Shown: positions 24,694 to 27,860 of the stretch, piece by piece | How positions within the stretch are numbered: the stretch's first letter is position 1 | Layout: every line of letters starts with the position of its first letter | DNA from: Nitrospira sp. | GTDB lineage: Bacteria > Nitrospirota > Nitrospiria > Nitrospirales > UBA8639 | Direction: 5' to 3' | Length of the DNA: 41,731 nucleotides | NCBI GenBank assembly: GCA_028819435.1 | Contig: JAPPLK010000054.1 | Location: 1 to 41,731, forward strand | Notes under the pieces: model-generated | The model's input: only the letters and a program-made list of their open reading frames with translations | What the model was told of the DNA's origin: nothing | The model's database searches: none | Program-made: the position numbers and the translations under genes

Positions 24694-26553
24694 ATGCCAC
24701 CTGCCATACACCCAGTCGATCTTCTTCGAGTTCTTCGACACCAACGTCTGACCCCGGCCATTGTCTTTTTGACGTCCCGGCGCGCCTGCGATGAAGCCAT
24801 CGGGAGCTTCGAGCACCGCCAACTCCCTATTCCTCCCACGCGGTCGACGGCCATCACGGACGTACTGGATCACATGATTGCCGAATATCCCAGTATCGCC
24901 GGCCATCCCCTGATTCCCACGGTTCAACAATATGGAGTGGCGGCCCATCACGCCGGGCACCTGCCGTCCTGGAAAATTGCCGTTGAAGAACTCATGCGTC
25001 AGGGGTGTCTGGATGCGGTCTTCGCCACCACGACACTGGCCGCCGGGGTGGATTTTCCCGCCCGTACCGTCGTGATGACCCAATCGAGCGTCCGCAAGAA
25101 CCGCAATATCATGGAATTGACCGTCAATGAAATCCAGCAACTCGCCGGCCGCGGCGGAAGACGCGGGAAAGATTACGTAGGGTTCGTCGTGGTCACGCCG
25201 TCGCCGTACATCGACCTCGGCCCCATCGCGAATGGACTCACGAACCACCCGGAGCCGATCGACAGTCAATTTGTCGTTTCCTATCCCATGGTCCTGAATC
25301 TCCTGAAAGCTCATTCCATCGACCATATCCAACCCATCCTGGAAAAGAGTTTTGCGCAATTCCAGCTCAATCAACGAGCCGATGCGTATGAAACAAAGCT
25401 GGATGACGTGGAAACTCAACTGGAGACCTATGGCCGTCGCGAATGCGCCGATTGGATTGCGCAGTGGCAGTCTTTCAGCCTGGCCAAGAAACGCCGCTCG
25501 CACCATCGCCGGAAAACGCAGCACGACCCACCGGAAATCTCAGCGCAATTGGCGTTCCTGACGCCGGGTCGCACAGTCGAACTTTCCAAGGCTCATGCCA
25601 TCGTCCTGCGGCAATATCGAAGCCGTGGACAAGGGGCTCCCATGTTGACCGTGATGCGCAGCGGCGGACGTATCATAGAATATCCCGCAAGCGCGGTGAC
25701 CGCGGTAATCGACGAAGTCATCGACCTTACGGAGGCTCGCCGGTTTCCCTGGTGCACGCCCCAGAGCCTGAATCACGCCATCGAAACCTTGGAACAGTTT
25801 CCCGCTCGTTTACGACGTCTGCCGATTCGCGTCGACCAGGACGGCGCCGACAACCCGGTCCTGACCGAAACGCTCAAGGACGAATTTCCTTGTCCAACCT
25901 GCCCGTCCCGTCCCGCGTGCCAAAAGGACCATCCGCAGGCCCTAAAGCTCCGACAGGAAGAACATCGACTGACGAAAACCATTCATGCCATGCGCACCGA
26001 ACTCTGGCACCGCTTCCAGCAACACGTGGAAGTATTGCAAAAATTCGGCTACCTGACACCCGCGTGCCAACTGACATCCGAGGGCGACTGGGCACGACTG
26101 ATTCGCATCAACCATTCGTTACTCATCACGGAACTGATCAGGATGGGAGCGTTTGAAGGCATTACGGCCTCTTTGCTGGCCGGCGTGTTGGCGAGCATCG
26201 CGCATGACGACGACCGACCGGCCTCCTTTCCCGGACGCCATCCGGCCCTGACCTCGACCCTCGGACAAGTGCGAAAGATCGCCCACTCGTTATCCGCGTA
26301 TGAAGAGCCGCCCCTCCTGAGGTGGGACGTTGCAGCGATAGCCGACCGGTGGATCGCCGAACCCACCCTTCCCTGGAACGAACTGATTCGCTCGACCACC
26401 ATGGCGGAAGGAGACGTTTACCGGCTCCTCGCCAGGACGCTGGAATATCTCTCGCAAGTATATGGACTCAAAGCGACCCATCCCGGGCTGGCTGGTGTCG
26501 CCAGGGACGCCATGGATCTCATGCGCCGGGACGTGCTGCAAGAATTGCCGTAG
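24694..26553 (+). CDS. C-terminal half of a Ski2-like helicase (RecA2, DSHCT-like), encoded alone
   Basis: A 619-residue protein that starts at the second RecA domain: P-A-I-V-F-L-T-S-R-R-A-C-D, then H-H-A-G-H-L-P-S-W-K, motif V A-T-T-T-L-A-A-G-V-D-F (111-121) and motif VI Q-Q-L-A-G-R-G-G-R-R-G (148-158). It has no motif I, II or III. A C-P-T-C-P-S-R-P-A-C cluster is present near residue 400, and the C-terminus has the DSHCT pattern (W-N-E-L-I-R-S-T-T-M-A-E-G-D-V-Y-R-L-L). The missing half is encoded next, 36 bases downstream, on the same strand. The two would need to assemble in trans to work. Confidence 0.88.
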   Translation: MPPAIHPVDLLRVLRHQRLTPAIVFLTSRRACDEAIGSFEHRQLPIPPTRSTAITDVLDHMIAEYPSIAGHPLIPTVQQYGVAAHHAGHLPSWKIAVEELMRQGCLDAVFATTTLAAGVDFPARTVVMTQSSVRKNRNIMELTVNEIQQLAGRGGRRGKDYVGFVVVTPSPYIDLGPIANGLTNHPEPIDSQFVVSYPMVLNLLKAHSIDHIQPILEKSFAQFQLNQRADAYETKLDDVETQLETYGRRECADWIAQWQSFSLAKKRRSHHRRKTQHDPPEISAQLAFLTPGRTVELSKAHAIVLRQYRSRGQGAPMLTVMRSGGRIIEYPASAVTAVIDEVIDLTEARRFPWCTPQSLNHAIETLEQFPARLRRLPIRVDQDGADNPVLTETLKDEFPCPTCPSRPACQKDHPQALKLRQEEHRLTKTIHAMRTELWHRFQQHVEVLQKFGYLTPACQLTSEGDWARLIRINHSLLITELIRMGAFEGITASLLAGVLASIAHDDDRPASFPGRHPALTSTLGQVRKIAHSLSAYEEPPLLRWDVAAIADRWIAEPTLPWNELIRSTTMAEGDVYRLLARTLEYLSQVYGLKATHPGLAGVARDAMDLMRRDVLQELP

Positions 26554-26589
26554 AAAAACAAGGAGAAAACACGTGCACCGGGTAGATAG

Positions 26590-27654
26590 ATGACCAACGA
26601 CGCATTGGCAAAACACTTGACTGGCCTGCCCGTCAGGCTGCTTCATCGTCTGGCAAAAAACCGGGTGCACCGGCACTTCCGCATGGGGAAAACCCGGCTG
26701 ATTCAATCACTCCTGTCGTTGCCACCCGAACAACGGTCAGAAATCGAAACAACGCTCACGTCCTTCCTGCCGGAACCTCCACGCCCTTCCAAGCCTTCCA
26801 AGCCGGATAGAGCGGCCAAGCCGAACCTTCAGCCCGATGCGCCGTCCCGTCCCGCCCCGCCTTCCCGGCAGCACCAGGTCCCGACCGAAGCGGCCATCAG
26901 CACACAGGCTCTGCTTGAAGGAATCGGCGTGCCTCCGCCACAACCGTTCAAGCCTGACGACTGGCAACGGGAAGCCATCAACTGCCTGGCAACCAATGAC
27001 GTGATCTTGAGCGTCCCCACCGGCAGCGGCAAAACCTACGTGGCGATCGAAGCCATGCGACGGGCCATCGAAGCCGAACGAACGGTGATTTATACGTCCC
27101 CCTTGAAGGCGCTCTCAAACACAAAACTGACGGAGTTTTCGCAACTCTTCGGTGCGGATCAGGTCGGTATTCTCACGGGCGACCGTCGTGACAATCCACA
27201 GGCTCCCATCCTGATCATGACCACCGAGATCCTGCGGAATCTGCTGTACGATGCCGCAAGTGGCGAGATCGACATGCGGCTGGATACCCTGGGCTTGATT
27301 ATTCTGGATGAATCGCAATTTCTGGCCGACGCGGAACGAGGCGTGGTGTGGGAAGAAACGATTATTTTCGCTCCGGCACAATCACGGCTCCTGCTGTTGT
27401 CGGCCTCCATCGGAAACCCCGAGGAAGTCGCCGCCTGGATCGGTTCCATCCGTTCTACGTCCTGCCACCTGATCCAACACCGCAAGCGCTCCGTCCCGCT
27501 TCGCGCGGCCTATCTCGACCCTTCAGGAAAACTCGCCCCATTCTTTCGCACGCGGGACATTGCGTCCGGTAAAGATTTCGCCCTCCATCCCGAAACCAAA
27601 CGCCTGTTTGCGAACTACGAAGACCGGACCCTCGGCCCACGATACAGGCGGTAA
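26590..27654 (+). CDS. N-terminal half of a Ski2-like helicase (RecA1), encoded downstream of its C-terminal half
   Basis: A 354-residue protein: a short helical N-domain (1-60), a Pro-rich linker (61-100), then RecA domain 1 with motif I V-P-T-G-S-G-K-T (142-149), Ia Y-T-S-P-L-K-A-L-S-N-T-K, motif II I-I-L-D-E-S-Q (237-243) and motif III L-S-A-S-I (270-274). DESQ replaces the usual DEVH. It ends Y-R-R soon after the linker preceding RecA2, exactly where the other half begins in single-chain relatives. No later motifs are present. Its Pro-rich linker is unusual. The ribosome site before ATG 26590 is weak. Confidence 0.88.
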   Translation: MTNDALAKHLTGLPVRLLHRLAKNRVHRHFRMGKTRLIQSLLSLPPEQRSEIETTLTSFLPEPPRPSKPSKPDRAAKPNLQPDAPSRPAPPSRQHQVPTEAAISTQALLEGIGVPPPQPFKPDDWQREAINCLATNDVILSVPTGSGKTYVAIEAMRRAIEAERTVIYTSPLKALSNTKLTEFSQLFGADQVGILTGDRRDNPQAPILIMTTEILRNLLYDAASGEIDMRLDTLGLIILDESQFLADAERGVVWEETIIFAPAQSRLLLLSASIGNPEEVAAWIGSIRSTSCHLIQHRKRSVPLRAAYLDPSGKLAPFFRTRDIASGKDFALHPETKRLFANYEDRTLGPRYRR

Positions 27655-27729
27655 CACCATCGGCTCCAACCAGCCGGCGCGTGCAGGTTCGATAAATCCC
27701 CAAAAATGCACGAAATCAAAAGTTTTGTA

Positions 27730-27801
27730 CATTTTGTACAAAACCTTACAATTTGTAAAATTTTTACAGATTTTACAAATTATGTCAAATTGTACAAAAT
27801 G
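27730..27801. repeat. 72-bp AT-rich nested inverted repeat
   Basis: Outer arms CATTTTGTACAA (27730-27741) and TTGTACAAAATG (27790-27801) and inner arms AATTTGTAAAAT (27750-27761) and ATTTTACAAATT (27770-27781) are both perfect over 12 bp. They are separated symmetrically by 8-base internal loops and an 8-base terminal loop. A further arm, GTTTTGTAC (27722-27730), pairs with GTACAAAAC (27736-27744). The sequence is very AT-rich against a GC-rich background. It lies 75 bases beyond the helicase half-gene. The stretch 27655-28061 otherwise holds only the dispersed repeat at 27861. Confidence 0.75.
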
Positions 27802-27860
27802 GACGGCATTGATGCGAAAATAGCTACTTTTGTCATTGGTATGAAAATAGCCCCCCTTTG

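Follow-up and report, generated by a model that had tools for sequence, protein, structure and literature searches.

In this study, we describe a HelY/Ski2-like helicase of Nitrospira that is divided between its two RecA lobes into two separate proteins, whose genes stand in permuted order, the C-terminal half before the N-terminal half, within the window (the whole stretch of 41,731 nucleotides that was analysed). The domain content of the two proteins, their collinearity with an intact chain, the conservation of the split and of its gene order, purifying selection on both genes, the grouping of the split proteins in one clade and the retention of both halves where they lie apart are established here. 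We propose with considerable confidence that the pair encodes a HelY/Ski2-like RNA helicase with two obligate subunits, while its assembly, activity and substrate are inferred.

The original prediction of two open reading frames on the same strand, 36 nt apart, was borne out; all features given below lie on the + strand. The upstream gene, or C-half (24694..26553), encodes 619 aa comprising RecA2 with motifs IV-VI, a stalk with a beta-barrel, a cysteine cluster and a DSHCT domain. Pfam matches were Helicase_C (residues 79-158), a weak MTR4 stalk (215-245) and DSHCT (460-615, E 1.8e-22; PF08148, 80.4 bits against a cut-off of 22.7; 26071..26538). At the start of RecA2, motif IV reads VFLTSRRAC (residues 24-32, 24763..24789), with variants of it in 55/55 loci, and it is followed by motif V, ATTTLAAGVDFPA (25024..25062), and by motif VI, QLAGRGGRRGKD (25138..25173), which carries the arginine finger, was found in 55/55 loci and has G152, R153, G155, R156 and R157 invariant in alignment A1. 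The C-half thus begins ahead of motif IV and holds motifs IV, V and VI, that is, the whole of RecA2. No motifs I-III were found in it by the domain and motif check, so that the content first predicted (motifs V and VI and a DSHCT end, without motifs I-III) stood, while the start assigned to RecA2 had to be refined to take in motif IV. Between the stalk helices, AF2 secondary structure predicts a five-strand beta-barrel in an arch/KOW-like position (residues 293-342, 25570..25719), and the cysteine cluster further on, CPTCPSRPAC (25891..25920), has C400, C403 and C409 invariant in alignment A1.

The two genes are separated by a 36-nt gap (26554..26589), with a TAG as the stop of the C-half and a second in-frame TAG right before the N-half ATG; in relatives, both the length of the gap and the relative frame of the genes differ. 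A tiny frame, VHRVDR (26573-26593), has AGGAG 7 nt upstream and a TGA that overlaps this ATG, and similar frames occur in some congeners; as a leader of six codons ahead of the N-half it was rejected, not being conserved in the order. The N-half gene (26590..27654), conserved across the order, encodes 354 aa made up of a small helical N-terminal module, a linker and RecA1. The four-helix module (residues 1-65, 26590..26784) is SAP/Rho_N-like by weak structural resemblance: it has no Pfam match above cut-off, and its matches in the structure search, including FAN1, PIAS1 and Rho, were all non-significant (E above 1). It belongs to the split clade only and was found neither in single chains nor in the matches of family f4, which says only that it is lineage-specific. 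A Pro-rich variable linker follows (residues 66-116, 26785..26937), modelled with low confidence over most of its length. The Pfam match to DEAD (residues 125-279) contains motif I (Walker A, PTGSGKT, 27016..27036) and motif III (SAS, 27400..27408), each in 55/55 loci, as well as motif II (27307..27318), which is DESQ in 55/55 loci and DEAQ in family f4. No RecA2 was found in the N-half by the domain check, in agreement with the prediction that it carries motifs I-III and ends before that lobe. Its C-terminal tail (residues 306-354, 27505..27651), on the RecA1 side of the former inter-lobe linker, has conserved residues and is a possible docking tail. Just 3' of the N-half (27702-27850) lies an AT-rich tract in which imperfect inverted repeats, with arms of up to 38 nt, overlap one another and several matches resemble promoters. 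Taken together, the criterion for a Ski2-like SF2 enzyme, namely RecA1 motifs I-III and RecA2 motifs IV-VI, is met, but it is spread over two proteins.

In a search of the PDB, the N-half matched the RecA1 part of Mtr4/Ski2 and the C-half the remainder, and the N-half followed by the C-half aligned end to end, collinearly, with an intact 718-aa homologue. The cut site is the variable RecA1-RecA2 linker, which, counted between RPVPL and motif IV, is 60 to 184 residues long in those single chains that were measured. For the AF2 model, both frames were folded as the TAG-readthrough fusion that the DNA allows, with the readthrough used only as a linker. Residues 1-619 of this model (pLDDT 74.7, pTM 0.58) align to Mtr4 391-1070, and N-half residues 119-303 to Mtr4 147-325 (1.9 A, 41% identity), giving a fold match for each half; in the absence of an inter-domain error, the placement of the two subunits relative to each other is not settled.

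A search for the same split order in relatives had been named as a check in the original prediction, and the order recurs. Among 60 order-weighted genomes, the window's own included and tallied from listed coordinates, 50 have both halves adjacent on the same strand, C then N, and five have both halves apart; in two (G027 and G047) only a C-half was found, lying at or close to the end of a contig, and in three genomes that are 71-84% complete (G034, G035 and G055) neither half was found. The pair is conserved across four families and 18 of the 19 genera sampled, with the adjacent genes from -4 to 195 nt apart and each of the three relative frames represented; chance falls far short of explaining such recurrence of one gene order and one cut. 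The C-then-N order was also seen in single-contig genomes (G010, G011, G022, G028, G030 and G054). Families f1, f2 and f3 have the same pair with differing neighbour genes, of a housekeeping kind in the window's family, so that no shared neighbour offers a clue to function. In family f2, the start of the N-half overlaps the C-half stop by 4 nt and a GGAGG or AGGA site lies in the last C-half codons, which, from the sequence, points to translational coupling. One N-half match (L031, genome G020) has a single in-frame TAA. Over 296 genomes sampled in the phylum, 95/95 full-length matches to the C-half are encoded by a frame of their own, 619-730 aa long, and all of them belong to the window's order; in the rest of this sample a clear DSHCT helicase was found only in G226, of the same class, as a single chain. 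The order is taken to be that of Nitrospira from the original suggestion and from the target site of the Nitrospira 16S probe Ntspa662, which lies within SSU rRNA in G156, as an exact match, and in the window's genome, with one mismatch. A single-chain DSHCT helicase of 718 aa from the same class and another order (L118 4939-7095) groups with Methylomirabilota in the tree.

Natural experiments in which the halves lie apart are provided by G012 and four genomes of family f4. The halves of G012 are 7.2 kb apart and both are kept; in family f4 they are separated by about 13 kb (G042) or stand on separate contigs, and both were found. Where complete, these separated halves are open reading frames. 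The insert of G012 (L062 11158-18344) places a gene for an 1862-aa autotransporter-like protein between the halves, and recurrent HSCARGNP-like peptides in the short frames next to it suggest interspersed repeats. The N-half of G042 (L065 3777-4166) runs into the contig end with an inverted piece, likely an assembly fault. The lone halves seen all lie close to or at a contig end or come from incomplete genomes, and one genome (G151) is without both halves.

Outside the order, both lobes lie in one frame in 79 of the best 80 relatives in the species-genome collection; the remaining one (L220) was ruled out as a split, being a collinear frame break. Among the matches listed for Methylomirabilota/Rokubacteria (86/95 genomes) and Actinomycetota (181/296), most frames are of single-chain length. 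Two short frames that were looked at as possible splits in other phyla (G448 and G443) proved to be one frame break and one contig end; other short frames, and matches beyond those listed, are left out of this result. As far as these sequences go, relatives elsewhere appear to be single chains, in line with the original expectation that bacterial HelY-type enzymes are otherwise single-chain, and the absence of a split there is a result of the sample and not proof.

Purifying selection acts on both genes, with dN/dS of about 0.06-0.2. In pairwise comparisons within the genus, dN/dS was 0.06-0.13 for the C-half and 0.13-0.20 for the N-half, whose N-terminal module and linker evolve faster than the RecA1 core (0.07-0.12). 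In 55/55 loci, a set in which a few genomes are counted twice, there is no variation in motifs I, Ia, Ib, II, III and V, and only slight variation in IV and VI. DExH at motif II and SAT at motif III are shared by all 76 extracted single chains, whereas every split N-half in alignment A2 has DE[SA]Q and SAS; the DExH box criterion of Ski2-like enzymes is therefore not met by the split clade (DESQ, or DEAQ in f4). The split proteins form one clade (SH-aLRT 100) on a stem of 1.83 changes per site, with its placement among single chains unresolved. The change to DESQ, together with this long stem, could indicate altered chemistry or function.

The two RecA lobes of an SF2 helicase form a single ATP site, and translocation is driven by their movement relative to each other; RecA1 binds ATP, and hydrolysis requires the arginine finger of RecA2. 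To our knowledge, a covalent link between the two lobes is nearly universal. As the ATP-site residues are invariant on both proteins and such a site is shared between the lobes, we infer that the two proteins meet. The N-half protein would supply the RecA1 lobe, including motifs I-III and the P-loop that binds ATP, and the C-half protein the RecA2 lobe with the arginine finger as well as the stalk/beta-barrel, the cysteine cluster and DSHCT; by binding each other they would rebuild the ATP site at the RecA1/RecA2 interface. Breakage in the variable inter-lobe linker would have lost nothing needed, and the variation in its length makes non-covalent association plausible. Most likely, a working motor forms only when the two proteins meet, although there are no transcript, proteomic or binding data. 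The dimer is putatively a 3'-to-5' RNA helicase of RNA processing or decay, as for HelY, with the substrate assigned by homology alone. The HelY of M. smegmatis is reported to be an RNA-activated ATPase and 3'-5' RNA helicase (PMC8931766).

The C-then-N order probably arose from tandem duplication of the whole gene (N-C-N-C), with subsequent loss of the first N and the second C, which is the simplest path to it. Profile searches at full sensitivity over the 2.5 kb flanking the f1-f3 loci on each side found no remnants of the lost halves, thus the duplication route is not directly shown. A more tentative idea, which we rather doubt, is that assembly is conditional: ATPase and unwinding would start only once the RecA1 and RecA2 subunits come together on a target RNA, to which RecA1 would be brought by its own helical module, the changes from DExH to DESQ and from SAT to SAS being tuned to the non-covalent interface.

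Since the window is one contig of a 114-contig assembly, the gene order might in principle reflect faulty assembly or binning, which the original prediction named as an outcome that would refute it; the same order in many independent assemblies, closed single-contig genomes included, excludes an assembly error, and we give this explanation practically no weight. A split helicase gene usually signals decay, and the pair might be pseudogenes, the remnants of a broken helicase. We agree with the original argument that a C-then-N order is inexplicable by a stop or frameshift in one gene, and its further argument against decay also held: decay is refuted by the low dN/dS, the invariant motifs, conservation over the families and genera sampled, and the lack of an intact copy, as no complete helicase of the family, the other outcome that would have told against the prediction, nor any other copy was found elsewhere in the genome. 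We regard the chance of decay as negligible. Hardly more tenable is a single circularly permuted chain, C then N, made by stop-codon readthrough or frameshifting, as might be imagined from the shared frame of the two window genes, which only two TAG codons keep apart; relatives differ in relative frame, in the length of the gap and in stop codons, all three frames are used, f2 has its overlap, and in other genomes the genes lie 7-13 kb apart or on different contigs.

Separation of the halves in family f4 and G012, as well as the altered motif II, would also suit two independent proteins, the N-half a lone ATP-binding protein and the C-half a non-catalytic RNA-binding or scaffold protein. This seems quite improbable to us, as motifs I-III are kept in 55/55 N-halves and V and VI in 55/55 C-halves, which is sensible only if the ATP site is completed between them; in addition, lone halves are confined to contig ends or incomplete genomes, and both halves are missing together in G151. 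An unlikely possibility, yet one that deserves some attention, is a two-subunit enzyme whose substrate is not RNA, such as a DNA helicase serving repair or anti-phage defence, given profile matches, weak and partial, to Hel308, to HamB and to further defence helicases and the faint likeness of the added module to the SAP DNA-binding domains of FAN1 and PIAS1, and also to Rho. Against it, the best matches and the DSHCT/stalk architecture are those of Mtr4/Ski2/HelY, the pair occurs nearly throughout the order and, in the window's family, among housekeeping genes, unlike defence islands, and the Hel308 score is far under the NCBIfam cut-off. The two-subunit RNA helicase remains our preferred reading, resting on SF2 mechanism together with the natural experiments, in which the halves are separated yet both kept and, in one case, absent together.

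Several known identities were also tried for the pair and rejected: Hel308 (51.9 and 57.2 bits against the NCBIfam equivalog cut-off of 1200), the DEXQ helicase Suv3 (DEXQc_Suv3 36 bits against 77 bits for DEAD, with a DSHCT/Mtr4-like C-half), and Hachiman HamB or another defence helicase (partial matches only, those to HamB covering one RecA lobe of models of 509-1163 residues). We found no report of a RecA1/RecA2-split helicase, or of this Nitrospira protein, in the open-access literature searched. An order-wide split dating from before the divergence of the families would be a natural test of whether the covalent lobe link is needed and a clear case of gene fission with permutation, and the pair would offer a ready split helicase for mechanism and tool-building. 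It also carries a warning for annotation, as either half alone resembles a truncated helicase.

A nucleic-acid motor naturally in two polypeptides is known from the reverse gyrases of Nanoarchaeum equitans and Methanopyrus kandleri, the break falling between the helicase and topoisomerase domains in N. equitans and the boundaries not following those domains in Methanopyrus (PMC8185306); neither is described there as a RecA-lobe cut with reversed gene order. The eukaryotic exosome helicases Mtr4/Ski2 have the same fold of both halves, the stalk region and DSHCT, but they are single chains, and the aligned yeast Mtr4 has DEVH at motif II. Their arch is also larger. HelY (the Rv2092c homologue of M. 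smegmatis and the single chains of cyanobacteria and Methylomirabilota) has the same RecA1, RecA2 and DSHCT, in the domain order of N-half plus C-half, and the chains of Methylomirabilota/Rokubacteria carry a similar cysteine cluster, CHRCPWG..C. While HelY holds both lobes in a single polypeptide, the split pair is two polypeptides in permuted gene order, with DE[SA]Q in place of DExH at motif II, SAS in place of SAT at motif III, and an extra N-terminal helical module.
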